From the IMG/VR virus record IMGVR_UViG_3300025120_000370, positions 1 to 28,946 of that record: DNA of 28,946 bases; one strand, written 5' to 3'. The position numbers and the translations under genes were made by a program. Every line of letters starts with the position of its first letter. Within the stretch, counting starts at the first letter, position 1. Shown in pieces: positions 1 through 22,445 of this stretch. A model generated the notes under the pieces. That model was not told the origin of the DNA and did no database searches. It saw only the letters and a list, made by a program, of their open reading frames with translations. The stretch comes from a virus.

Positions 1-164
1 TCTTAGGGATTGGAGCAACTGTACAGAATGTAAAGACAGTGATCACATCTACTGGTATTCCAATAGCTTGGTTTGGAGTTATGAGTGAAACAATGATTGC
101 TATTGTATCATTTTACTTTGGTGGCTCATTAGCTAAATTTAGAAATCCTTACAACTCAAAGTAA
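1..164 (+). CDS. C-terminal end of a holin-like small membrane protein (5' partial)
   Basis: An open frame enters from the left edge (first full codon at 3) and stops with TAA at 162-164, giving about 53 residues. A run of hydrophobic residues (IAWFGVMSETMIAIVSFYFG) forms one likely membrane segment, followed by a short basic, polar tail ending in NPYNSK. A membrane segment ending in SFYFG plus a short charged tail is common in small phage holins, and a lysis gene beside the structural arm would fit. The N-terminal part is outside the window, so topology and the number of membrane segments cannot be judged. Holin is an inference from composition and context. It could be another small phage membrane protein. 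Confidence 0.55.
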   Translation, partial: LGIGATVQNVKTVITSTGIPIAWFGVMSETMIAIVSFYFGGSLAKFRNPYNSK

Positions 165-185
165 GAATTCTCTAAGTTCCTTATA

Positions 186-213
186 GGGAGGTCTTAGGAT
201 CTCCCTTCTAGTT
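186..213 (+). terminator. Hairpin between the holin-like gene and nrdJ
   Basis: An 8-bp stem with a TTAG loop occupies 186-205 (GGGAGGTC / GATCTCCC, with one G-U pair), followed by a modestly T-rich stretch. It lies in the only real gap of the left part of the window (165-243). The weak T-tract makes a partial terminator or an mRNA-stabilising 3' structure as likely as a full terminator. The rest of the gap holds the nrdJ ribosome binding site (GAGG at 234-237) and no promoter that I recognise. Confidence 0.5.
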
Positions 214-8272: not shown

Positions 8273-11200
8273 ATGATTGATAAAACAGATCCAACTAATA
8301 GGGATACTGTACCTGCTATGCTTACTCCTGGAGAATTTGTATTAAACAAAGAAGCAACAGAAATGTATGGTCCTATAATACAACAAATGAATAACAATGG
8401 TTTACAACAGCGTTCCGCAGAAAACAAAGCTATGGAAGCTAACATGGGTGGTGGTGTTAAGTATTACAATGATGGTAGTGAAAAACCAGTAAGTTCTTAT
8501 AAGTTTGAACCAACCATGAAAAAGTTAGTTCAAGATTTAATGAAAGATTTTGGACTTACTAAACTTCAAGCTTCTGCTATGGCTGGTAATCTTGGTTGGG
8601 AATCTGATAACTTTAAGGGTATGCAAGAATACAATCCTATTGTTAAAGGAAGTAAAGGCGGTTATGGTTTTGCTCAATGGACAGGTCCAAGGAGAGAGAT
8701 GTTTGAAGAGTGGTCAAAATCTAATAACTTAGACCCTTCATCTTATGATGCTAATTATGGATTTTTAAAATTTGAGTTATCAAATTCAAATGATGAAATA
8801 GGAAACATGGGTGTAAATACTATAGATCAATTAAAAAAATCTAACGATTTAAACGAAGCAACATCAATAGTTATGAACACTTATTTAAAACCTAAAATAC
8901 CCCACGAAGATAAACGTCAAAGTCGTAGTCAATCTGTTTTTGATTTATTTAAATCTGACAATAACAATGAAGTTGTTACATCTGTTCGGCCCCAAACAAG
9001 ACCTGAATCAATTCCAAAAGAATCACAACCTGTTGTTATGGAACAACCACCAGCTGCACTACCTAATCCTACAGGATACGGTGGTTATACACCTCAACAA
9101 TTCCTTGACGAAGCTGGAAGAATAAATACAACAACCACAGTTCCTAGTATGGAACAAGCTCCACCAATGATGCAAGAATTCATAGCCCCTCTTCCCAATG
9201 CTGGCGCTGACGCTAGTTTTGGCAGTGCTTTTAAAGAAGCTCGTGGTCGAATGGGTGCAGGTCAAGTCTTTGACTATGGAGGAAAACAATACACAACAAA
9301 TTTTGCAGAGGAAGAAGATATGATGACTGCTAATATGGGAGGCAAGGCTTGTTCTTGCGGCAAAAAGAAAGTGTGTGATTGTGGTTTAAGTATGACATAT
9401 GCTAACATGGGTGGTGATATTCCAGCGCAGTATTTAAATATTGGGGATTTTGTAAGAAATCTTATAAGTCCTTTTTATCAAAAAGAAGATAAGAAATATT
9501 TAGGATATGGAACAGAAGCATACCCTTATGATACAGTAGCTACTTATCCATCATTCACTGCTCCAGGAGATCAAGGAATGGACATGGGATCTATGACTCA
9601 ATCTAATAATAATACAGTTCCAAATTACACACCAGTTCCTTCAAGTTTTAATTCATTACAAAACAGAGCAGAGGGTTTACAAAATAATAATAATGTTCCA
9701 GAATTACAAAATTATACAATGCCTACGGGGATACCCCCTGCATTATTACCAAAGGTTAATTCAGATCAATCAATACTAGATGGATCTTCTGACAGTGTAA
9801 AGGATGCACAAAGGATGATGATGTTAAACAATCCTATGCCTAACATTTTACCTGTACCTGATGGTAATCCAACCTCACTTGCTCCACCTTCTGTAGATTT
9901 TCTACCTATGAAAGAATCTTTTAAAGGTGTCAGTATTCCAAGGAGTGAACAGGACGCTGAAAGAATGATGGGTATTAACAACCCAATGTCTGTACCACAA
10001 AGTGTACAAGATTCTCAAAGAATGATTGACATTAATGCTGACAATGGATTTATCCCCAAGCCTAATATAGACGTTCCAGTAGAACAGGTTTCCACAGAAG
10101 CTGAAGCTGCAGCTGAAAGAATTAGTGAAGAGATAAGTGATTTAAGGTTAAGGATGTCAGTTATGCCTTCAGGTTCTGAAATGAGAGCTATACTTCAAAC
10201 TCAAGTAGATCAAAAGTTAGGTCAAATAGCGTCTATGGGTCAAGATTTAAATTCAACTACACTACCTGTACCTAAACAAACAGGTGTTAACACTGGATTA
10301 ATTAACGCTAAAACAGAATTAGAGGCAGCTAATTTAAATTTACAAAAAGCTAAAACTCCTGAGGATATTCAAATAGCCGCTAATGAAATTGCTGCTGCAG
10401 AACTTAAAGTAGAAAACAATGCAACGATTCCTGAAATACAAACAAGTATGATAACTAAAGCAAACACAGAATCTTTGCAATCTAGACGGAATTTACTTTC
10501 TTCTATTGACAATCAAATTAATAACTCAAATAACCCTAGGGTTATTGCAGCCCTTAATGAAAAAAGGAAAGTAATTCAAGCAGACATTAAAGATCTTGAT
10601 ACTGATTTAATGTTAGAAGAGGGTGGTGTAAATGTTCTTGGAGAAAGGGGAAGAAGATCTCCGTACTTACAGTATGGTGATATAGTTCAATCTAGAATTG
10701 ATGCTCTTGAAAAATCTACAGAACCTGAAGGATCTCCTTCTAATAATACTAACAACACTACTAACAACACTACTACTGCACAAACAGATAGTGAGTCTAT
10801 AGAAAGTCTTGGTAATCAAATAGCTAAAGAAACCAAGAATGCACCTCAAGTTACAGAAGCCAAGGGTCTATTGTCCTCTGTGTTTGGAGATCTCTTTGAT
10901 AGTAAAGAACTTATGAGGGCTGCTATTATGTATCTTGGTGGTCGTGCTACAGGTATGTCTGGTAATCAAGCTCTTGCATTTGCAGGTAAAACCTACTTAT
11001 CTAGGGAAGAAGCAAATGATACAGCTATGAAAAAGCATATTAATAAACTTATTACAGATGGTGACTATACAACTGCATCTATTAAATTGTATAAAGAAAC
11101 AGGAGACATAGATGTATTGCAACTTAAAGGTGCTACTTATGTAGATCTTGGAGAAACTAAAACTTACTATCCTATTAGTGGTAAGATGAAAGGTGTTGCT

Positions 11201-11980
11201 GTTCAAGCTAGAAAAGTTAAAGGCAGTGATGGCAGTATAAAATGGCAAGGTCAAAATGGTCAATTCTTATCTTTAAATAAATATCATACTGATATAAATA
11301 GATCTAAGTCGAGACCAAGATCAGCTATTAATGCAGAAGTAGATCAAGTACAAAAACTGTTTATTAGTCTTAGAGATGATTATGGAACAGTTAAAACAGC
11401 ACAAGGTGGTGAATCTGCTGTTTATAGAACTAGATTAAATCCAAGACTTGTTGGTGAAAAAACTGTTGACTGGGCTATGTCAAATAACATTCCACCTTAT
11501 GCTGTTGGTGAAGTTTTAGAAGGTGCTTACAAGAGAGCTTTAGCTGATGCAGCAAGAGAAAACAAACCTTTAATAGCTGAATCTATTGATGGCTATCTTC
11601 ATAGTCAATGGATACAAATGTCTGCTGGTGATGTCACAGACTTTATGACAGGCGATGAAAAGAATCCTAAACCTATTGAAACTACTGCAGTCAATGAATG
11701 GGTTGGTGGTATAAAATCAAAAGTATCGGCCGTTAATCCAAAAGAATTTGAAGGTATGAATGATATAGTATTTTCTACTTTCTTAAGAGAGTCTAAATTA
11801 ACTGACAGCTATCACAATACTGAAGCTAATGGTGGTATTTCTTTAAAAGACAGACAGAGATATATTAGGAGGGCTAATGCACAAACCCCACCTATTAGTG
11901 GTTATATGTTATATATGCAAGAGAATGTTGCAAAAGAATATCGTCTGTTGCTTGACAAAAGAAATCAGGTAATGAGTTAA
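8273..11980 (+). CDS. Large ejection protein with N-terminal tail-lysozyme domain and Cys cluster
   Basis: A 1235-aa protein with an AGGAG ribosome site. Residues 13-27 contain VPAMLTPGEFVLNKEA, a motif frequent in phage structural proteins. Residues about 78-226 form a phage tail-lysozyme-type domain: ASAMAGNLGWESDNF with probable catalytic Glu110, and GGYGFAQWTGPRR (129-141). It would cut peptidoglycan during DNA entry, as the transglycosylase domain of T7 gp16 does. Residues 360-371 are CSCGKKKVCDCG, a probable metal-binding CxC-x5-CxC cluster flanked by NMGG motifs at 354 and 378. Residues about 620-860 are helical and Asn/Gln-rich, and from about 865 a globular region (LLSSVFGDLFDSKELMRAA) leads to the C-terminus, for which I see no function. 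It is part of the ejection block. Confidence 0.75.
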   Translation: MIDKTDPTNRDTVPAMLTPGEFVLNKEATEMYGPIIQQMNNNGLQQRSAENKAMEANMGGGVKYYNDGSEKPVSSYKFEPTMKKLVQDLMKDFGLTKLQASAMAGNLGWESDNFKGMQEYNPIVKGSKGGYGFAQWTGPRREMFEEWSKSNNLDPSSYDANYGFLKFELSNSNDEIGNMGVNTIDQLKKSNDLNEATSIVMNTYLKPKIPHEDKRQSRSQSVFDLFKSDNNNEVVTSVRPQTRPESIPKESQPVVMEQPPAALPNPTGYGGYTPQQFLDEAGRINTTTTVPSMEQAPPMMQEFIAPLPNAGADASFGSAFKEARGRMGAGQVFDYGGKQYTTNFAEEEDMMTANMGGKACSCGKKKVCDCGLSMTYANMGGDIPAQYLNIGDFVRNLISPFYQKEDKKYLGYGTEAYPYDTVATYPSFTAPGDQGMDMGSMTQSNNNTVPNYTPVPSSFNSLQNRAEGLQNNNNVPELQNYTMPTGIPPALLPKVNSDQSILDGSSDSVKDAQRMMMLNNPMPNILPVPDGNPTSLAPPSVDFLPMKESFKGVSIPRSEQDAERMMGINNPMSVPQSVQDSQRMIDINADNGFIPKPNIDVPVEQVSTEAEAAAERISEEISDLRLRMSVMPSGSEMRAILQTQVDQKLGQIASMGQDLNSTTLPVPKQTGVNTGLINAKTELEAANLNLQKAKTPEDIQIAANEIAAAELKVENNATIPEIQTSMITKANTESLQSRRNLLSSIDNQINNSNNPRVIAALNEKRKVIQADIKDLDTDLMLEEGGVNVLGERGRRSPYLQYGDIVQSRIDALEKSTEPEGSPSNNTNNTTNNTTTAQTDSESIESLGNQIAKETKNAPQVTEAKGLLSSVFGDLFDSKELMRAAIMYLGGRATGMSGNQALAFAGKTYLSREEANDTAMKKHINKLITDGDYTTASIKLYKETGDIDVLQLKGATYVDLGETKTYYPISGKMKGVAVQARKVKGSDGSIKWQGQNGQFLSLNKYHTDINRSKSRPRSAINAEVDQVQKLFISLRDDYGTVKTAQGGESAVYRTRLNPRLVGEKTVDWAMSNNIPPYAVGEVLEGAYKRALADAARENKPLIAESIDGYLHSQWIQMSAGDVTDFMTGDEKNPKPIETTAVNEWVGGIKSKVSAVNPKEFEGMNDIVFSTFLRESKLTDSYHNTEANGGISLKDRQRYIRRANAQTPPISGYMLYMQENVAKEYRLLLDKRNQVMS

Positions 11981-11997: not shown

Positions 11998-14900
11998 ATG
12001 GGACTATTGGACGAAGCTGTTGAGTACAGCCCTAAGAATTTAGGATCATCAGATAATTTCTTTATTGATGCAGATACAATATCAAATGCAGATGGGTCTG
12101 AAAGATATAGACTTGCTGGTTTTGATGCTGCAGAAGTTGAGAAAATAATTGATGGTGAGTTCAAACAAGGAACTGCTGGTGGTGCAAGATCTACTGACAT
12201 AGTTTCAAATCTTGCTAACAAGGAGGGGTTTACTAATATAAAACCTCTCCTTAATCCTGACGGAACTTTTAAGGAAGATGTTTATGGTCGTAAGTTAGTA
12301 GACCTTACAAACGAAAAGGGTGAAAGTTTTAATCAATCTCTTTTAAACTCTGGTGCATTTGACCCTAATGCATATAGCAGTTCTGATTCAATAGGTCTTG
12401 CAAGAATTTATCAAGCTCAAAAAGATGAACGTTTAGAATCAGGTGGGTCTTTAAATGCATTTGATAATGCAGCGTTTGATATTGAGTCTGCTGAAAGATC
12501 TGAAGGTGCAAAAGCATTAGGCTTTAAGAAAACATTAGAAACAGAAAAAGAACGAGCTCAATACATAGATTACTTTGAATCTAAAGGTATGTCTCGTGAA
12601 GAAGCTACTTACGAAATGGATAAGTACTTTAACTATGGTGTTGAACGAAGACGCAGTGATGTTGATATAAATTTTAATTCATTAAACCCATTTACTGATT
12701 CTTGGGAACAGGGGTGGACTAGTGTAGGTGAAGCTGCCTATGGTGTCGCTGAAATGTTTGGTGCTAAAACAGGCAATGAAGGCTTAGAAAATTGGGGTCA
12801 AGAAGGCATAGAAAAACAACGAAGTAAGCTTTCAAACTATGGGAATATAATTAATAGCTATAAAGATATTAACAGTGTAGGTTCGGCTTTTGAATACTTA
12901 GGAAGCACTATGGCTATGTCACTACCTTACATGGCAGCTACAGCTGCTGCTACTGTAGCAGCCCCTGCAACATATGGAGCATCTTTTTCTGTACCAGTTG
13001 CTATTTTTACAGGTATGACTTGGAATGAAATGGAAGGGGATAATGATAGTAAGTCAGCATCTTTAGCTATTGGCGCTGGTGTTGCAATGACTGTCTTAGA
13101 TCGAATAGGTATAAAAGGTTTAGGTGGTTTTGCTGCAAAAAATCCAGCTAAAACATTACAAGAAGCAGCTAATAAATATGCTAAAGAAAGAGCCATAAGT
13201 CAAGCAGAAGCTGGAGTAGTTGTAAAGCAAGCAACAGATAGAGTAATCGCAGAATTTGCAGAAAAAGTTGAGAGTTTAGCTAAAGAGCAATTAGCAGGTA
13301 AAGCTACTGCTAAACGTATTGCACAACGAATTGGTACTGGTTCTGTAGCAGAAGGACTTACTGAGGTAGGTCAAGAAACTGTAGGGTACTTAGCAGCTGT
13401 TCAAGGTTCAGATAAAATATTTGATTATCAAGAATTCCAAGAACGACTAGCTAATGCTGCTGTTGCAGGTAGTGCATTAGGTGCTACTTTCTCTGTTCCA
13501 GGAACTGTTAAAGATCAATTAAGTTGGATGGATGCAGCTGCAAGGTTTGGGGAACCTGCTTCTCCATCTGAAATAGAAGAGTATGCTAGAATAGAAATTT
13601 TAAATAACAGAAATAAACCAGAGTATAAAGGTAAAGTTAGAACTGTAAGTCAAGTACTTTCAGATGTAGACTCTGAGATGAATGCAGATAGTGCATACAC
13701 TGCTTTAGCTGATCGTGCTACTATGCACAAAAATTCAAACAAAGAAAAAAGTTTTTTAGATAGAGCATCAACATCTGTTATGAATGTATCTAACTTGTGG
13801 CAAGCATCTGTTACTAATGCTATCCCAAAGTCAGTGTTAGATAAGTCTTCTTCAGCAAGAGCACTTGCATCAATACTAGGTGGAACACTTACACCTTTAC
13901 ATGGTGGCTCTGGGATGGAAGCTGCACAACATCATTTAGTTACTGCATATAAAAATCAAGTGTCAGATCCTAAAAGATTTTATAAAGAGTTTGGTTTAAA
14001 AAGTGTGTTCGGTGTGTTTAAATCTTCAGATAAAGCTAGGATTAGTGATGAGATTTATTCAGTTATTAGAGGTGGTAAAAAAGGTAGGTATCAAAAAGGT
14101 AAATTTATAGCAGACCCTGAAGGTAAAGCAAGAGAGTTTTTAACTAAGGGTGAATTTGATCCTAAGAAAGTACCAGTAGACTTACCAAATAGAGCACTTA
14201 TTGTTAACTTAGGAACTCAATTAAAAGAATTAAGTAAAGTAATGAGAGATGATCAAGTAGCAGCTGGAGCTAAAATGGGAGATCTTTCAAATTATTTAGG
14301 AAGATATAAAGCTTTAAATAAAACTGAGATATATAAAAATCAAGCAGAGTTTAAAAAATTATTAATGACTAAACTTGGTAAACAAAATATGTCTGCTGCT
14401 CAAGCTCAAAAAATTACAGATGAAATTATAGATAATCCATTAGTCAACGATCTTGGGGATGCTCTTGCCTCTAATGTAGGATCATTAAATCCGTCATCTC
14501 ATAAACAAAGAACAGTAAATCTTTCAGAGAACACTGATTTTGACAAGTTCTTTGAAAGAGATATATTCGCTAATGTGGCTACGGCTGCTAAAGCAGCTGC
14601 AAGATACTCTGTTCAAATGCAATACGTAGGTAAAGATGGGTCTAAGATTGCTCATTTGCTTAAGAAAATGGAGAAAGAAGGGGTATCAAAGGAAGAAGTT
14701 AACAGGGTAGCCTCAGATGTATCTGACATACTAGAAGCAATGTCTGGTAACTACAACAGACCTAAGACACAAGCAGGTAAAAAGTTAATGAGGTTCCAGA
14801 AAAACGTAATGTTCTGGATGACATTATCTGCACTGCCACTTGCTACATTTTCCTCATTACCAGAAATGGCTATGACTCAAAGTGCCTTAACTAACGATCA

Positions 14901-16059
14901 AATCTTTGGAAAGAATGGAAGTATAAAATCTTTTGCTTCAGAGTTTGCTGCTTCTTTTATTCCTCAATTTAAAAAAGTTGAAAACAATACAGACGAAGAG
15001 ATACTTAAAGTAGTGACAAGAAGTAAAGGTCAAGAGAAAATGTCTGAGGTTGGTATGTATCAATGGGAAGTTGGTGCTGCTACTACAACTGGTGTTAGTG
15101 AAATACATGATGGTCGTAGGAACACTATGGAATTATTCTTCAAGGCTATTGGTTTAACACAATGGACTGACTACACTCGTGCTATTCGTGCTGCTATGGC
15201 GTATGATTTTATAAAAATAAATTCTGAGATTGTTGCTATGAGAAACTTAGGTTTCACTAAAGCAACTAGGGAAGCACAAGAAGCTGAACAGAAACTTAGA
15301 AGTTTAGGTATACCTGTAGAACAATTTGCAGAGATGATGTATCAAGTAGATCTTTATGGTCCAGATGCATTAAACAATGACCCTAAGAAGATTCAACTGT
15401 GGGAAACTACAATGAAGGAAGCTACGTTTAATTTTATTAATCAAGCTATCCCACTTCCAGGAGCCGCTAACAGACCTTTAATCTATCAAGATCCTAGGTT
15501 TGCTTTGTTCACACAGTTCCAAGGTTTTATATCTACATTTACAGCCAATCAAATACCTAGGTTATGGAATGATTATATTAAACGTGGTACACCAACCATG
15601 AGGTACAATACGTTTGTACTTATGTCTACTATGATTGCTATGGGTTTCTTAACACAGGCAATGAAAGATGCTATTAAATTTGAAGATGATGATGACGAAG
15701 GTACATTAGGTAATCCATATCTAGATACACCAGAATATATTAGGCGTGGTGTTATGTCTTCAGGACTCTTAGGAACAAGCGAAAGAATTGTAGATTTATT
15801 TGCACCTATCTATGGACAAAGATCCAGTGGTATGGGAGATTGGATTTACAATCAAGCGGCTGGCGAAAGTCCAACACTAGGTTACGTTGGTAGGCTAGGC
15901 GATGCCGCATTGAATGTTGCTAAAGGTGACTTTGAGAAAGCAATATACCAAGGGTTAAAATCAGCCCCAGGAGTTGCACCATTTACAGATACAAACAAAA
16001 GCATAGCTAGTTTTGTAACTGGTGGTGGTTGGAACTACAAAGATAACGAGGAGAACTAG
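11998..16059 (+). CDS. Very large ejection protein with N-terminal SNase-like nuclease domain
   Basis: A 1353-aa protein with AAGGAG upstream. Residues about 20-125 match the staphylococcal nuclease fold: IDADT (23-27; Asp26 and Thr27 equal SNase Asp21/Thr22), YRLAGFDAAE (37-46; Arg38, Asp43, Glu46 equal Arg35, Asp40, Glu43) and DVYGRKL (94-100; Arg98 equals Arg87). Every residue known to be needed for SNase catalysis is therefore present. Further on there are hydrophobic, Ala-rich stretches around 300-335 and 355-380, near 938-955 (MFWMTLSALPLATFSSLPEM) and near 1205-1220 (FVLMSTMIAMGFLTQAM), compatible with membrane insertion. The C-terminal region (NPYLDTPEYIRRGVMSSG, then SERIVDLFAPIYGQRSSG) has the style of large phage internal proteins. 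It probably forms the inner-membrane conduit while carrying a nuclease. The nuclease target is unknown. Confidence 0.75.
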   Translation: MGLLDEAVEYSPKNLGSSDNFFIDADTISNADGSERYRLAGFDAAEVEKIIDGEFKQGTAGGARSTDIVSNLANKEGFTNIKPLLNPDGTFKEDVYGRKLVDLTNEKGESFNQSLLNSGAFDPNAYSSSDSIGLARIYQAQKDERLESGGSLNAFDNAAFDIESAERSEGAKALGFKKTLETEKERAQYIDYFESKGMSREEATYEMDKYFNYGVERRRSDVDINFNSLNPFTDSWEQGWTSVGEAAYGVAEMFGAKTGNEGLENWGQEGIEKQRSKLSNYGNIINSYKDINSVGSAFEYLGSTMAMSLPYMAATAAATVAAPATYGASFSVPVAIFTGMTWNEMEGDNDSKSASLAIGAGVAMTVLDRIGIKGLGGFAAKNPAKTLQEAANKYAKERAISQAEAGVVVKQATDRVIAEFAEKVESLAKEQLAGKATAKRIAQRIGTGSVAEGLTEVGQETVGYLAAVQGSDKIFDYQEFQERLANAAVAGSALGATFSVPGTVKDQLSWMDAAARFGEPASPSEIEEYARIEILNNRNKPEYKGKVRTVSQVLSDVDSEMNADSAYTALADRATMHKNSNKEKSFLDRASTSVMNVSNLWQASVTNAIPKSVLDKSSSARALASILGGTLTPLHGGSGMEAAQHHLVTAYKNQVSDPKRFYKEFGLKSVFGVFKSSDKARISDEIYSVIRGGKKGRYQKGKFIADPEGKAREFLTKGEFDPKKVPVDLPNRALIVNLGTQLKELSKVMRDDQVAAGAKMGDLSNYLGRYKALNKTEIYKNQAEFKKLLMTKLGKQNMSAAQAQKITDEIIDNPLVNDLGDALASNVGSLNPSSHKQRTVNLSENTDFDKFFERDIFANVATAAKAAARYSVQMQYVGKDGSKIAHLLKKMEKEGVSKEEVNRVASDVSDILEAMSGNYNRPKTQAGKKLMRFQKNVMFWMTLSALPLATFSSLPEMAMTQSALTNDQIFGKNGSIKSFASEFAASFIPQFKKVENNTDEEILKVVTRSKGQEKMSEVGMYQWEVGAATTTGVSEIHDGRRNTMELFFKAIGLTQWTDYTRAIRAAMAYDFIKINSEIVAMRNLGFTKATREAQEAEQKLRSLGIPVEQFAEMMYQVDLYGPDALNNDPKKIQLWETTMKEATFNFINQAIPLPGAANRPLIYQDPRFALFTQFQGFISTFTANQIPRLWNDYIKRGTPTMRYNTFVLMSTMIAMGFLTQAMKDAIKFEDDDDEGTLGNPYLDTPEYIRRGVMSSGLLGTSERIVDLFAPIYGQRSSGMGDWIYNQAAGESPTLGYVGRLGDAALNVAKGDFEKAIYQGLKSAPGVAPFTDTNKSIASFVTGGGWNYKDNEEN

Positions 16060-16061
16060 TA

Positions 16062-19000
16062 ATGGCACTAGAATATGCACGTAACTTATCAGCAGTTGAA
16101 AACAAAGACAATAAATTAGATGTAGGTCTTATAGAGACAGCTACTTCAGGTAAAGGGTTATTAGCAGAAGCTTCTGAAATAATTCCTGGAAGTGCTGCAA
16201 CTGTTGGAGGTCCACAACGTTCTTTTAAAACTATATCACAAGATCGTATTATAGAGATTCAAGATAAAGATCTTACAGATGAAGAGATAGAACAGAGGAA
16301 TCAAGAAGCTGGTAGAGTATCTAGTATACGTGAGGCACAAAGTGGTTTATCTCCAGATTTAAATTATGATTATCAAGAAAACATTACAAAGCCAAATTTT
16401 AAAAACTTAGATACCGATGGTGGTATACTTAGCAGAGCTACTCAATTTGCTAACGCTACGACTCAAGGAAACTTTGGATTAAATTTAGCCATTGATAATA
16501 ATCTTTCTGGTATAGCTCCAGAATCTAGAGCTTCTATTAAAAATTTTAAAGGTCCAGATTTAACTACAGGATTTCGTTCTGTTTTTGATGGACAAAAAGC
16601 TAATGTCCTTCAAGCAATAAGTGCTGCGGATGGTGTTGTAATGTCTGAAGGAACAGGGTCTGGTAAGATAAATATATCTGTTCCTAATCCTGTTTACTCA
16701 CAAGTTATGAGTGCTGCAACAGAACACGTTCTTATGAATTCTTTTGCTGGAACAAATGCTGAAGTTGATCCTTATAAAGAGTTTATAGAATCAAAAAAAA
16801 GTTTACTTCCTACTAATAAAAAAGCACAATCTATGCAACTAAAAGAAGTAAGCGATGAAACTAATAATGCACAACTAGGTCAACTTATTCATTTAACTTA
16901 TTTAAGACTGTTGAGAGATAGACTTTTAAATGAAAATGGAGATAGGATACGTAGTGATCCTAAATATCAACAGCTTAGTTTGGATTCCCCTAACCCACTT
17001 ACACTTGAAGAATCTGAAGTTTTAGGTAAAGCAGCTAAAGAAATTTGGACAGATAATAATAGAGATCTTGTTGATAAAATAAAAGTAAAAACAGGTGTTG
17101 GTCCAAAGACACAAAATAAATATATATTAACTCCTAGGGGTGAGAATGTATTATCTCAAGGGCAAAAAGCACGTTCTTTATTGTTCCCCTCTACAATAGT
17201 TAAACCATTAAGATCTCCCAATGGTTTTTCTAATACTGATATGGGTAAGAATAAACTTAAAAAAATTCAAGGTAAATCTATTGGACAAAGAGCAGGAAGT
17301 GAAATAGATCAAGCAATAGAAAACTTAGAGAGTGTAGGTAGCAGGGTTAATAGTCGTAGGGCTAAAATAGCTTTGAGTACTTTGCTTCCTATATTAGCTT
17401 CTAATGTAGACTCTCCTCGTAGTTGGGTAGATGAGATGTATAATATTGGTAATCAAAAACTAGATATGTTTAACGCTTCTAAAAAATTAGAAGAAATAAA
17501 AATGGCTAGTGGTGAGATTGATACCCTACCATTAGATAAACGCTATAAACCTTTAGAAGAACTTGAAGGATTAAGAAATAAATTAGCTCAAGAACTTAGA
17601 GCTTTAGCTGAAGTCCGTGAAGGAGTTTTCTATTCAACTTATGCTATTCAAGGGTTTCAAGGACGATTAACTCCTCAACAAACATATGTTAACTCTACTA
17701 CATCAAAGCTTGTTAGGTTTGTAACTAGCGCAGTGTTACCTGCATTTGTAAAGCGTGGTAACAGGCAAGATTTAAACTTACGTCAGATGTATGCTAAAGC
17801 ATTATTAACAAACACAGAAGGTAAAAACATTGGTGATCCATTATTACCCGATGCAAGAGAATCTCTTCTTACAAAAGATACAGGTACTTTGTACAGTAGG
17901 GGTAAACGTTTAAGGCAAGCTTTAGAAATGACAGATGCTGAGTATGAAACAATTTCTCAAGCTATGGTAGATAAGATACCTATAAACTCTTCTAATTTTC
18001 CTAAGTTTGGAGGGTTAAATTTAGATCCAGTTGCTGATGAAGATTTAATATCTATTATAAATAAACAGGGGGAAGATGGTGCAGCATTTATAGACGCATC
18101 AATAGACTTTGCAAATTATATAGATCATTTTAACAGTGACACCACTAAACCATTTGAGTCTTACCTTAATGCGTACATGGATGGTAAAACTAATGGACCT
18201 GCAACTCAAGGTATGCAAATGGGAGATGAAAGAGTAGCGTATAAAACAGGAGTTTTAAGGAAGTCAGAAAACAAAACCCAATTACTAGATAATGGGGATC
18301 TTAGAAATGAACTTATGGATCATGCTAAAAGAAATATTTTACAAAATCCATTTACAATATCTGAAGACAATCCTGAATGGCTCAATGCTATTGAAACTGT
18401 AGCCTCTGAACTTTACAATGATAAAGATTTAGCTAAAATAGTTATAATGACTTACGGGTATGGTAAAGAACTTGGTGGTAGTTTTGCTGCTACTTTTAGA
18501 GAGTTAGTTGAATTAAAAAGAGCAACTGCTGAAAGAGAATCAAAAGAATTTCGTGGAGAATCTTCTGATGAGTTTACATTATTAAGGGCTATTAGAGTTC
18601 TTGATGCTAATGATATGAAACAATCTCTAACACTAATGAGGAAAAAATATGAAGAATCTTTAGAGGATTTAATGTCAGAATTAGGTATAGAAAGTAGGTC
18701 ATTAATGAGGGCTGTGGCTGGAGCGACAGCTGTTATGGATGTTTCTTTTCAATTTGAACTTCCAAATGGCATGACATCTTTTATAGGTAAGTCAGTGTCT
18801 GATGGTTATGATAACAAGTATCAGTACTCTATACAACGTGGTCAACAATATGATCTTGGGCTTGAAGAAAAACTTCAAAAAGCTATAGAAAATAATAATC
18901 AATCACAGATAGATGATTATCAACGTAGGATAGCTAATGAAAAGAATAGAGTTCTTGGAAAAAGAGATACTACTATGGTTTATGCGTGGAAAAATAGAGA

Positions 19001-19838
19001 AACTGGTTCAGCTTTTAGAGATCGTGATGGTCAATTAATCCCAGGAGATTGGGCTTACGGAGGAGCACCTGTTGTTCCTATACAAGCTGTGGATGCTGCT
19101 ACTGTTACAAAAAGTGTTACTGGAAAATCTTGGCAATCTTTAATGAAAGCATCTCAAGGATACCCTTTCATACATACAATCTATGATGCATTTAAAGTGG
19201 ATGCTAACGGATATGATGTTGTTCTCAGAGAAGTTAATACTAACTGGATGAAGATTAATAATGATTGGAATTATTTAGAAGAAGCTTTAAAATCTTTAGA
19301 GAAATCTGAAGCTGAGTTTAAAGAGATGACCAAAGACATGAAAGATTCTGATGTTCTTAGCCCAAGTCAAAGTGCTTATATGAATTGGATGTTAACTTTA
19401 CAAGATCCTGTAGCTAATGATGAAGCTAATCTGTCAGATGAAGAAATAAAAGCATTGGAAAAATTAAGTAAAGATGAAGATCCAGAAAAAGTTCTTTCTA
19501 ATTTTAGAAATCGAATGATTAAATTTAATCCTAGTTTAAAATCAGACAGTGCAACTAAGTCTTATCCAATAATAGATATTGAAAAAACTTTAATTGAACG
19601 TATGCGTAGAGTTGGTTATGATGTTTTTAATCCACCAAGTCAACCTACTTTTAGACAATTAAAAGAATTTAAATCAATAGTTCAAACTAATTCGGCTATT
19701 AAAGAAAGACTTAAAAGAGCAATATATAAAACTAATAAGAAGAAAAGTGAATTGAATAAGTTAATGCGACAAGAATCAGAACTTATGTATACTGATCCTC
19801 AAGGATATACTTACCCTCTTCAATACTACACACACTAA
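16062..19838 (+). CDS. Putative virion-packaged single-subunit RNA polymerase (ejected)
   Basis: A 1258-aa protein, the last gene of the ejection block, two bases after its neighbour and with GAGGAG upstream. Residues about 510-1100 carry the motifs of T7-superfamily RNA polymerases. QGFQGRLTP (530-538) corresponds to T7 DWRGRVY. MDGKTNGPATQG (706-717) is motif A, with Asp707 equal to T7 Asp537. KIVIMTYGYGKE (792-803) is motif B, with Lys792, Thr797, Tyr800 and Gly801 equal to T7 Lys631, Thr636, Tyr639 and Gly640. ELPNGM lies near 900 (T7 TPDGF), and PIQAVDAATV (1006-1015) matches T7 NFVHSQDGSHL. IYDAFKVD (1040-1047) is motif C, with Asp1042 equal to Asp812. Known relatives packaged in virions are the N4 vRNAP and crAss-like polymerases, which are far larger. 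Gene position implies injection with the DNA. The first 500 residues are unrecognised and may hold virion-binding and promoter-reading parts. Confidence 0.8.
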   Translation: MALEYARNLSAVENKDNKLDVGLIETATSGKGLLAEASEIIPGSAATVGGPQRSFKTISQDRIIEIQDKDLTDEEIEQRNQEAGRVSSIREAQSGLSPDLNYDYQENITKPNFKNLDTDGGILSRATQFANATTQGNFGLNLAIDNNLSGIAPESRASIKNFKGPDLTTGFRSVFDGQKANVLQAISAADGVVMSEGTGSGKINISVPNPVYSQVMSAATEHVLMNSFAGTNAEVDPYKEFIESKKSLLPTNKKAQSMQLKEVSDETNNAQLGQLIHLTYLRLLRDRLLNENGDRIRSDPKYQQLSLDSPNPLTLEESEVLGKAAKEIWTDNNRDLVDKIKVKTGVGPKTQNKYILTPRGENVLSQGQKARSLLFPSTIVKPLRSPNGFSNTDMGKNKLKKIQGKSIGQRAGSEIDQAIENLESVGSRVNSRRAKIALSTLLPILASNVDSPRSWVDEMYNIGNQKLDMFNASKKLEEIKMASGEIDTLPLDKRYKPLEELEGLRNKLAQELRALAEVREGVFYSTYAIQGFQGRLTPQQTYVNSTTSKLVRFVTSAVLPAFVKRGNRQDLNLRQMYAKALLTNTEGKNIGDPLLPDARESLLTKDTGTLYSRGKRLRQALEMTDAEYETISQAMVDKIPINSSNFPKFGGLNLDPVADEDLISIINKQGEDGAAFIDASIDFANYIDHFNSDTTKPFESYLNAYMDGKTNGPATQGMQMGDERVAYKTGVLRKSENKTQLLDNGDLRNELMDHAKRNILQNPFTISEDNPEWLNAIETVASELYNDKDLAKIVIMTYGYGKELGGSFAATFRELVELKRATAERESKEFRGESSDEFTLLRAIRVLDANDMKQSLTLMRKKYEESLEDLMSELGIESRSLMRAVAGATAVMDVSFQFELPNGMTSFIGKSVSDGYDNKYQYSIQRGQQYDLGLEEKLQKAIENNNQSQIDDYQRRIANEKNRVLGKRDTTMVYAWKNRETGSAFRDRDGQLIPGDWAYGGAPVVPIQAVDAATVTKSVTGKSWQSLMKASQGYPFIHTIYDAFKVDANGYDVVLREVNTNWMKINNDWNYLEEALKSLEKSEAEFKEMTKDMKDSDVLSPSQSAYMNWMLTLQDPVANDEANLSDEEIKALEKLSKDEDPEKVLSNFRNRMIKFNPSLKSDSATKSYPIIDIEKTLIERMRRVGYDVFNPPSQPTFRQLKEFKSIVQTNSAIKERLKRAIYKTNKKKSELNKLMRQESELMYTDPQGYTYPLQYYTH

Positions 19839-19888: not shown

Positions 19889-20170
19889 TTATTTAAGCAT
19901 ACCTCTTTTAGCAAGAAGTGTTTTGTATTCTTTTATTTGATCTTGTTTACGTGCCTTAGCTTGTTTCTCATCTATTACATTATTAGCAAGATCTTCGGCA
20001 ATACCTATGTCTATTATCCTAGGCATAAGTTCTGGAGTATAAGCCAGACTTTCATCTAAGGTTGTGTTAGTTAATGAGTTAGTGTTCCAATCATTGATAA
20101 ACTCATCATCATCAACTTGCACACCTCTTAATGCTAAGTGGTTATACGATTTACGCGAAGAAGTAATCAC
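19889..20170 (-). CDS. Hypothetical protein at the end of the early arm
   Basis: A small charged, soluble protein of about 93 residues with no recognised family. It overlaps the 3' end of the RNA polymerase gene. The open frame reaches back to a TTG at 20179, but the ribosome site (AAAGGAG, complement of 20181-20187) ends only one base before that codon. The in-frame GTG at 20168-20170 is about ten bases from GGAG and is the better start, giving a 20-bp overlap with the polymerase gene. The C-terminal third is a Lys/Gln-rich helix (EKQAKARKQDQIKEYKTLL). No cysteines or membrane segments. As the last gene before the terminator it is co-transcribed with the polymerase. The function is unknown. 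Confidence 0.7.
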   Translation of the reverse strand: MITSSRKSYNHLALRGVQVDDDEFINDWNTNSLTNTTLDESLAYTPELMPRIIDIGIAEDLANNVIDEKQAKARKQDQIKEYKTLLAKRGMLK

Positions 20171-22445
20171 TGTTTTCAATCTCCTTTATATCTAAGTTGC
20201 CAAGTGTGGGTTGTTCCACATCATCTTCAGCATCTGTTATGAAGTTACGTATAACTTCAAAATAATTATCACAGTCATACATACGTATGAACACTTGTTT
20301 AGTTAAGCTTAGTAGTTTATCTACATCACTTGCATGGGTACTGAAGCTATCATGTACGGCTGCAAAGCAACCATCCCAACTAGACACTACGAGAGCCATA
20401 TGACTAGCATCCATAGAATGAATGTAGTTAGGTGACATTCCACACACAAACCCTCTACGATCAGGCATACGTGTAGGTACTAGGGCTACGTGGGTTACTT
20501 GACCTGTCTTATTACCATAGCCTTTGATACGTCCTCTAGCTTTCCTGTCTTGCATTATCCATTTCTCATAGACAACATTGAAACCTGAAGGAGTACCCCA
20601 TACTATTTTATCCACACCCTTACCATGTTTAAGGTTTGTTGTGAATTCTTTTAGTTTAATAACAGTATCATTGAGTTCTATAAGATCATCATCAGTCTTG
20701 AAGTTCTTCTTCATTAACTCATCACGTTTTTGTGACAACTCTCTGTACTCTCCATTAGCTTCGTAACCATCTAGGTCTACTTTAACATGGGTTCCTAGTT
20801 GGTACATAGCTAAGTCTTGCAAGTAACGCATAGTAGATAGGGGGCCAGGACATACCTTATCGATAGCTTTTATGAGAAGCTTTGATAGTTTAGTACAATC
20901 GTCCTGTGTTATCCCATACTCTGTGTGGTAGTCTTCAGACTTACAATCAAAGAACATATTCTCAGCGATCTTCTTAGAACCTGCTGAGTATGCCCTAGTC
21001 ATTGAGCCACGTTTAGATATGCCTTTGCGTATACTTTTCATAGGCATACTTGCTAAGATAGATTTTAATCTGTCATCTTTACAGATGTTAATCATCTCTT
21101 TAGCAGTTTGAACATAGAAATCTTTCTGTATTTCTCCAGGAATTAGACCTACTAGATCTCCTGTTTGTTCATCTTTTGAGATAGCACCTAAGTGTTGCCA
21201 TCCATTGTTACTACCATCAATAGGTATAGGCAGTGAAGTCATGTGTATCCTGTTGTCTTTGAATGCACAGTCAAACTCATACCATTCAACACAAGCAGCA
21301 AGGAAAGATACTTTCTTCTCTGCATCGTTAGAGAACTGTAAGTTCATACCTGCATCAACTATCTCTTCCATGTACTGATTAGTCCACTCAATGCGATCTT
21401 CTAGTGTCATTTTGTCAACAGATATATTATCTAATCCCTCACTTTCAAGGTGAGTTCTATAGTCTGCTGTACACCAATCAGGTATCTCATCAAGTCCATA
21501 AGACATATTAAATACGGATGCAGTGTGTATTGCTAACCACTGTAGTCCACCTTCAGTCATTGGCTTTGAATGATAAAACTTAAACAATCCCCTAGCTAGA
21601 TCAGACCCTTGGAAGTTCATAAAACTTTCACAGTAATACAATCTACTTCTGTAGTCTGCATCTATATACTGATAGAACTTCTCTAGCTCTGATAACTTAC
21701 GTGCTTTCTCTGATATAAAAGCCCACTCTACCATCTTACTTCTACGTTTAAGTTCTTTGGCATCGTTATCTAGTACAGGTTCTTGAGATACAAACAGATC
21801 TTTGTTAGCTACCATAGCCTCAAATACAGGAGTATTAATTTTCCATTCTGTTTGTTGCAATTTATTTATTGCTTGTACCCAAGGGGCATAGGGATCTAAG
21901 TAGTCTCCTTCTAAGCTACCTTTAATTACTGGTCTGTTTACACCATTAATATTTTGAAACATCTTATTGATATCTTTAGGTTTCTTTGTTGTAGTTGCAG
22001 CTAATGGAAAGCTATCTCCCCTATCTGGAATGACACCAAGTTCATACCAACGAGGAGAAGCTGACACAACATGACAACTGTTTCTTGTTTTAGCATACGA
22101 TAAGTCTATGAACTTTAAATTATATAAAGCTTCTATGAACAAATCACCTATAGATACCTGAGAGCCCCAAGGTAGGGGCTCCCTATCTAACTCTTTACCA
22201 ACACTTTGACCTATCTTGGTAGACGCATTGGTCAATGTTGTAGTCCCTGCTGGACTAGAACTAGTGTCTTTTGTAAATTGCATCTGTAGTATTGAGATGC
22301 TTTTAAGAACGTACTCTTCCATACGTTCACTATAGTTAACTGATAGCCTCAGTAAGAGCCCTGCAAGATGGGGTCTTCTACGTGCTGGACTAACAGCATC
22401 TACCCTAGTTACAAGGTAGTCAACTATCTCTTGGAGTGCTGACAT
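20151..22445 (-). CDS. T7-type single-subunit DNA-directed RNA polymerase
   Basis: Phage RNA polymerase expected to transcribe middle and late genes. Motifs visible in the 764 residues: IDADYRSRLY (261-270, the DxxGR motif with Ser267 in place of Gly), motif A IDGSNNGWQH (Asp410), motif B SKRGSMTRAYS (Lys478, Tyr486; Ser487 in place of the usual Gly), GTPSGF (617-622, the TPDGF equivalent), NYIHSMDASH (673-682), and motif C AAVHDSF (Asp699). The C-terminus ends DYFFA, the conserved foot of this family (T7 ends DFAFA). It is about 120 residues shorter than T7 RNA polymerase (883 aa), mainly in the N-terminal domain, so promoter recognition may differ. ATG start with AGGAG five bases upstream. 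It lies near the promoter-distal end of the early arm and starts eight bases after the helicase gene. Confidence 0.96.
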   Translation of the reverse strand: MSALQEIVDYLVTRVDAVSPARRRPHLAGLLLRLSVNYSERMEEYVLKSISILQMQFTKDTSSSPAGTTTLTNASTKIGQSVGKELDREPLPWGSQVSIGDLFIEALYNLKFIDLSYAKTRNSCHVVSASPRWYELGVIPDRGDSFPLAATTTKKPKDINKMFQNINGVNRPVIKGSLEGDYLDPYAPWVQAINKLQQTEWKINTPVFEAMVANKDLFVSQEPVLDNDAKELKRRSKMVEWAFISEKARKLSELEKFYQYIDADYRSRLYYCESFMNFQGSDLARGLFKFYHSKPMTEGGLQWLAIHTASVFNMSYGLDEIPDWCTADYRTHLESEGLDNISVDKMTLEDRIEWTNQYMEEIVDAGMNLQFSNDAEKKVSFLAACVEWYEFDCAFKDNRIHMTSLPIPIDGSNNGWQHLGAISKDEQTGDLVGLIPGEIQKDFYVQTAKEMINICKDDRLKSILASMPMKSIRKGISKRGSMTRAYSAGSKKIAENMFFDCKSEDYHTEYGITQDDCTKLSKLLIKAIDKVCPGPLSTMRYLQDLAMYQLGTHVKVDLDGYEANGEYRELSQKRDELMKKNFKTDDDLIELNDTVIKLKEFTTNLKHGKGVDKIVWGTPSGFNVVYEKWIMQDRKARGRIKGYGNKTGQVTHVALVPTRMPDRRGFVCGMSPNYIHSMDASHMALVVSSWDGCFAAVHDSFSTHASDVDKLLSLTKQVFIRMYDCDNYFEVIRNFITDAEDDVEQPTLGNLDIKEIENSDYFFA
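20181..20187 (-). promoter_or_regulatory. Ribosome binding site deciding the start of the last early gene
   Basis: AAAGGAG on the minus strand inside the 3' end of the RNA polymerase gene. It is too close to the TTG at 20177-20179 (one base) but about ten bases from the in-frame GTG at 20168-20170, which is therefore favoured. Confidence 0.6.

Follow-up and report, generated by a model that had tools for sequence, protein, structure and literature searches.

The locus described here raises the question of whether a phage that already encodes a classical T7-type RNA polymerase (RNAP) carries a second RNAP among the proteins that it ejects into its host. The locus lies in IMG/VR virus record IMGVR_UViG_3300025120_000370, a marine virus fragment of 28,946 bases (the window, meaning the whole stretch analyzed), in which the plus strand carries a late block made up of a ribonucleotide reductase (RNR) gene, tail and structural genes, and genes for three large proteins (1235, 1353 and 1258 aa), and the minus strand carries replication genes and the gene for the T7-type RNAP. 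The late block ends with an open reading frame (ORF) of 1258 codons (16062-19838, plus strand, ATG start, no cysteines in the product) that is convergent with the T7-type RNAP gene. An initial annotation of the DNA had read this ORF as a virion RNA polymerase (vRNAP) at the end of an ejection-protein block. Sequence comparison and structure modeling show computationally that the predicted protein is a compact single-subunit RNA polymerase (ssRNAP), with the fold and an intact catalytic set, related to the vRNAP of phage N4. Very probably it is a compact vRNAP of the N4 lineage that is made late, packaged, injected, and used to launch the transcription of early genes, the T7-type RNAP gene among them.

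The ORF carries the ssRNAP motifs at exactly the residues that the initial annotation had named, and the gene is the last of the late block, as had been claimed. GFQGR, the counterpart of T7 DxxGR and N4 TxxGR, occupies residues 531-535 (17652..17666, plus strand, as for all the motifs); motif A presents Asp707 (18180..18182) in DGKTNGPA, which reads DGVTNGPI in N4; motif B extends from Lys792 through Thr797 and Tyr800 to Gly801 in the pattern K-x7-YG (18435..18464); PIQAVDAATV lies at 1006-1015; and motif C supplies Asp1042 (19185..19187) in IYDAF. Single-sequence searches with the protein gave no RNAP match in Pfam or PDB and a weak match in PHROG, tblastn on phages yielded nothing usable, and a PDB profile search with the family alignment found no RNAP; weak Pfam matches, for example to OSK and NADAR, were judged to be chance. 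Single-sequence search found no homologue among known families or phages. A search with the neighboring T7-type RNAP as the query gathered 80 loci, and in about 50 of them the gene beside the RNAP was a homologue of the polymerase, 24-43% identical to the query, near-identical copies excepted. A second scan with the family alignment added further loci, and in 73 of the 73 that were read a convergent T7-type RNAP gene neighbors the polymerase gene. Full-length homologues span 1116-1385 aa. Dereplication left 37 relatives with the same gene position, mostly 22-43% identical to the window polymerase, and PHROG 414 ('RNA polymerase') matches 19 of the 26 members of the family alignment (best E-value 4e-7), with one matched by 'virion RNA polymerase'.

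Within this family the catalytic residues are conserved beyond what chance would give. Only 27 of the 1258 positions are invariant in the 37 dereplicated full-length members (34 among 26 full-length relatives), and both sets include R535, D707, G708, K792, M796, G801 and D1042. The earlier claim that the metal-binding aspartates and the ribose-selecting tyrosine are kept therefore holds across the family: both aspartates are present in 37/37, as are Arg535, Lys792 and Gly801, and Tyr800 is present in 36/37, so that no catalytic residue is lost apart from this single exchange to phenylalanine. D1011 is D in 36 relatives and E in one. The relative with Phe at the Tyr800 equivalent, the ribose-selecting place, is L086:12619-16677 (minus strand). 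At the same position in T7 RNAP, the Y639F mutation relaxes sugar choice. Three other details of the initial annotation stood in part. Lys788, at the place of T7 Arg627, is present in the window protein, but it is a local exception, with Arg in 32/37 relatives. The LPNG segment near residue 900 is not itself conserved, and most relatives have P-x-G or a similar sequence there. Tyr1041, noted as a departure from T7 His811, is there too, but it is what most of the family has (34 Y, 2 F, 1 H), and the residue that precedes the motif C Asp in N4 is likewise aromatic (F950 in mini-vRNAP numbering). This aromatic residue (Tyr here, Phe in N4, His in T7) points to kinship with N4.

The predicted fold leads in the same direction. 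AlphaFold was run on residues 95-1258 with only the family's own 26-sequence alignment and without templates, and it returned a confident model (predicted local distance difference test, pLDDT, 81.6; predicted template modeling score, pTM, 0.81) with the right-hand fold of an ssRNAP, as the initial annotation had anticipated. Each of the 50 best PDB matches found for the model by Foldseek was an ssRNAP (T7, mitochondrial or N4 mini-vRNAP), with E-values of 6e-15 for T7 and 2e-13 for N4 mini-vRNAP, the latter having the highest template modeling (TM) score of the 50, 0.43. Matches in a viral structure library were likewise mostly RNAPs and vRNAPs. For profile comparison, the N4 side was represented by a profile built from eleven N4-type mini-vRNAPs. 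The family profile aligned to it by hhalign with a probability of 94-96% and E-values of 1e-7 to 1.7e-9 over residues ~200-720, in a register that places Arg535 on N4 Arg424 and Asp707 on N4 Asp559 (mini-vRNAP numbering), with DGKTNGP opposite DGVTNGP. The controls, comprising T7-type RNAPs of the same phages, the family of the 1353-aa protein, DNA polymerases and column-shuffled N4 profiles, gave E-values of 0.02 to 0.9. At the level of profiles the family is closest to the N4 vRNAP and not to the adjacent T7-type RNAP.

From three features of the gene we infer that the polymerase is packaged in the virion and injected from it: its place as the last gene of the ejection block, a lack of cysteines as in N4 vRNAP, and its co-inheritance with an ejection protein. 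In N4, the vRNAP gene is also last, behind the ejection proteins. Cysteines number zero in 23 of the 26 aligned members, the window protein included, and one in the rest; they are also absent from all 3500 aa of N4 vRNAP and from the more divergent type represented by Roseobacter phage CRP-7. The T7-type RNAPs of the same genomes have 7-13 cysteines, and the intracellular enzymes of the window 2-12. The CRP-7 protein, gp33 (QBQ72826.1, annotated as hypothetical, 1235 aa; L005:15985-19692), is syntenic, lying between a T7-type RNAP and the homologous ejection protein gp34, and has motif-like residues R497, D678, Y774, G775 and D979, but it differs in that it has Arg766 where motif B otherwise has its Lys. 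BLAST of the window polymerase against gp33 detected no similarity, and a profile linked gp33 weakly to an allele group (E 0.002). AlphaFold gave no confident model for the CRP-7 type (pLDDT 41); gp33 of this cultured phage is probably a more divergent member of the family. In gp33, Lys762 stands four residues ahead of Arg766, possibly an exchange of two basic residues. In the CRP-7 paper the name RNA polymerase is given only to ORF30 (PMC6918029).

Co-inheritance is clearest within the CRP-7 clade, where the gene beside the RNAP follows the adjacent ejection protein in its changes rather than the replication genes. In the contigs L012 and L220, the RNAPs are 100% identical over 819 aa and the DNA is 98.9% identical over 4.2 kb up to the polymerase slot, whereas the slot proteins have no BLAST similarity and the ejection proteins are 21% identical. 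G014 and CRP-7 share flanking DNA (85% identity across 4.4 kb in one flank and 91% across 0.4 kb in the other), and between those flanks gp32-gp35 are absent, replaced or distantly similar in G014. Since each allele group was found in several independent contigs, assembly chimeras are unlikely. The slot alleles are connected by a chain of profile matches (X1 to X2, E 3e-8; X2 to X3, 1e-24; window family to X1, 3e-7). The catalytic Asp, Lys, Tyr, Gly and Asp are invariant across ten of these alleles, whose identity goes as low as 17%. Wholesale swapping of the ejection cassette, that is, the vRNAP gene with one or two large ejection proteins, was seen with RNAPs up to 100% identical in L012/L220, in L213/L214, and in G014 (L241, L242) versus CRP-7 (L240). 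Closer to the window, the polymerase is 31-39% identical between the window and four near-complete relatives of 57-60 kb (G001-G004), compared with 86-88% for the RNAP, 90-95% for the DNA polymerase and 89-94% for RNR; it is among the fastest-changing long genes in this comparison.

Transcription elements were studied in these four genomes. Each carries about five copies of TTCTCTAAGTTCCTTATAGRGAR, which we take to resemble the T7 promoter TATAGGGA; they lie 31-40 nucleotides (nt) before the terminase gene, 73 nt before the RNR gene and at the early junction. The window has its own T7-like late promoter, TTCTCTAAGTTCCTTATAGGGAGG (168..191, plus strand), ahead of the late block and 52 nt upstream of its first gene. 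The repeated element CTATAAGGAACTTA was considered as a vRNAP hairpin and rejected: its complement is T7-promoter-like (TATAGGGA) and its position is ahead of two late genes, TerL and RNR, which led to its assignment to the T7-type RNAP. At the early junction of G001 there were two sigma-70-like sites, fewer than the 8.2 in shuffled sequence. The second class of element comprises 16 hairpins, four per genome, all on the early strand and many of them 54-72 nt before a gene. Each has a 9-bp stem and the loop ACRGG, followed by TTTAAAAAGA; the general form is AATCCGACC-ACRGG-GGTCGGATT-TAAAAAGA (L100:15562-15611, L101:983-1032, L106:6215-6264 and 13 more), and one example reads AATCCGACCACAGGGGTCGGATT. 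Around a constant core the outer stem covaries, with changes on both sides in 5/9 pairs; cells with both-side changes number 14 against 3.0 in shuffles (0/500), and the signal is lost in slid controls. As single-stranded DNA the hairpin folds at about -8 to -9 kcal/mol. No copy turned up in CRP-7 or in the clades whose RNAP is 55% identical. In the hairpins that serve N4 as early promoters, some stem bases are fixed and others vary freely (PMC4496689), and matching hairpins were seen in N4 at positions 95, 564 and 4553. We propose the early hairpins as candidate vRNAP promoters of the window's clade.

Catalysis, packaging, injection, early transcription and the order of these events are what we infer from the observations above. 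In the proposed cycle, the T7-type RNAP would drive the structural operon late in infection, and the compact polymerase would be made, packaged alongside the other ejected proteins and delivered to the next host along with the DNA. Once inside, it would make the first transcripts of the early region, the T7-type RNAP gene among them; in the window's clade it would start at the four covarying early hairpins, as N4 vRNAP does at its own. The T7-type RNAP would then transcribe the late operon from the T7-like promoter at 168-191, the vRNAP gene included.

Other functions can be imagined for the same protein. It might have a fold inherited from a polymerase but have lost the enzymatic function and, as an ejection protein, only help to build the DNA-entry channel; the position in the ejection cassette, the fast divergence relative to the T7-type RNAP (31-41% identity as against 86-88%) and the Arg at the motif B Lys place in the CRP-7 branch would suit such a role. 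Yet both metal aspartates, the motif B Lys and Gly and the Arg of GR are among the few positions invariant in all 37 relatives, and Asp, Lys, Tyr and Asp are invariant even in the very divergent A7 alleles. It is exactly the catalytic residues that are kept, so a dead fold is not expected, and we consider this explanation very improbable. An active but unpackaged enzyme, a second intracellular RNAP made late, would agree with late-operon expression, as judged from gene order and the promoter at 168-191; the absence of cysteines, a signature shared with N4 vRNAP but not with the window's intracellular enzymes, the N4-like position in the ejection block and the joint swapping with the adjacent ejection protein rather than with replication genes leave this little chance of being right. 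T7 RNAP pulls T7 DNA into the cell by transcription, and a packaged RNAP might likewise act mainly as the motor of genome entry, showing little preference for particular promoters, and not as the selector of early genes. Very divergent vRNAP alleles in near-identical backbones, as in the pair with identical RNAPs, speak for it, since with such alleles own promoters elsewhere in the genome would be hard to maintain. The covarying, constant-core hairpins before early genes look specific, though they were found only in the window's clade, and on balance genome pulling as the main function seems unlikely.

A further alternative concerns the hairpins alone, which might be transcription terminators or RNA-level elements instead of vRNAP promoters. 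Covariation cannot separate DNA from RNA, and within the scanned region a loose terminator search pattern picks out one copy. However, most copies have no T run directly behind the stem, 16/16 are on the early strand with many shortly before a gene, the Rfam search matched no family, and the constant core with a freely varying outer stem is as in N4 promoters (PMC4496689); we rate the terminator or RNA explanation as plausible, slightly short of an even chance. Several observations weigh against the vRNAP interpretation as a whole, the terminator-like copy being one of them. The hairpins fall slightly past the window's right edge, and their loop has 5 nt compared with 3 nt in N4. The first residue of T/DxxGR is Gly531 in the window protein, a departure from the T7 and N4 types that the initial annotation had rightly pointed out: Asp or Thr does not occupy this place, and the relatives have G, S, A or N. 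Known RNAPs align to the model with modest TM-scores (0.35-0.43, relative to the query). Residues 715-1130, behind motif A, have by themselves no significant profile similarity to N4, so that motifs B and C are assigned from the fold, from the related A7 family (E 6e-7) and from the invariant residues.

Among known systems, N4 vRNAP (gp50, with mini-vRNAP being residues 998-2103) is the nearest, sharing the ssRNAP fold, the DGxTNGP motif A, the aromatic residue before the motif C Asp, the lack of cysteines and the position as last gene of the late/ejection block. It differs in its 3500 aa with giant flanking domains, which the ~1258-aa window polymerase does not have, in the Thr of TxxGR where the window polymerase has Gly, and in its partner RNAP, a heterodimer in N4 and a single chain in the window phage. 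N4-type vRNAPs have 2842-3820 aa and further domains, almost always including a metallopeptidase-like one (PMC10654107, PMC5512222); neither the giant size nor this domain feature is found here. T7-type ssRNAPs (Autographiviridae) share the fold and catalytic residues and give the best Foldseek E-values, but their profile similarity is not significant and the window phage has a separate, genuine PF00940 RNAP. Features of Schitoviridae are only partly present. The portals of G001 and N4 both belong to phrog_1216, with weak direct BLAST similarity, but the major capsid proteins differ (phrog_1328 in G001, phrog_1357 in N4), and in place of a heterodimeric RNAP II and a genome near 70-75 kb there is one 764-aa RNAP and a genome of ~58 kb in the window's group, the longest related contigs being 57-60 kb. 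The compact family, while departing from gp50 in size and domains and from Schitoviridae in several features, is predicted to share ancestry and working mode with the N4 polymerase domain. The putative vRNAPs of StenR_269, DES1 and some Zobellviridae are also large cysteine-free late proteins; they were proposed from size, helix content and the absence of Cys, with low-confidence AlphaFold models (PMC10747016).

The literature treats N4-type vRNAPs as a property of N4-like phages alone and describes them as fused, almost without exception, to other domains (PMC5512222, PMC12633501). A large 2023 IMG/VR survey removed proteins <2500 aa (PMC10654107), a cut by which a compact kind of vRNAP would be overlooked, and no description of the compact family was found in the literature searched, from which most subscription articles and preprints on bioRxiv are absent. 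Two papers on roseophages (PMC12629253, PMC11288001) were set aside as dealing with other phage groups. New relative to the literature found is a vRNAP that is compact, standalone, outside Schitoviridae, and encoded in a cassette swapped between phages with near-identical RNAP genes. Whether the family amounts to a separate lineage of compact vRNAPs outside Schitoviridae that is widespread in marine podophages, has its own class of hairpin promoters and travels in an ejection cassette swapped between phages with near-identical replication genes, leaving close phage relatives with vRNAPs that BLAST does not connect, is, in our estimate, an evenly balanced proposition. With this second, previously unannotated RNAP, a strategy once regarded as peculiar to N4-like phages appears to be widespread, in a much smaller form, among phages of the ocean. 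The compact polymerase would provide a small enzyme for studying the passage of a polymerase through a phage tail, CRP-7 offers a cultured test system, rifampicin-resistant early transcription is predicted in marine phages, and two promoter classes are available for mapping. Cassettes swapped whole with their polymerase raise the question of how promoter recognition persists.

The T7-type RNAP of the window (20151..22445, minus strand) has 764 aa and 12 cysteines and matches PF00940 with an E-value of 2e-54. On the other side, the gene for the 1353-aa protein (11998..16059, plus strand) ends 2 nt upstream of the polymerase gene; this large ejection/internal virion protein has no cysteines and matches virion structural proteins of phages tf and KPP25 (phrog_6958). 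It is similar to structural proteins of LUZ24-like, KPP25-like and Vibrio podophages, and this likeness, together with the PHROG shared between the portals of relatives and of N4, indicates that the group mixes lineages. The large virion protein encoded upstream (8273..11980, plus strand, 1235 aa) contains a phage tail lysozyme domain (PF18013). In G001 the divergent early/late junction (L100:13690-14320), like its counterparts in G002-G004, is rich in imperfect direct repeats such as CTCTCAGTATCT, which are possibly an origin of replication.

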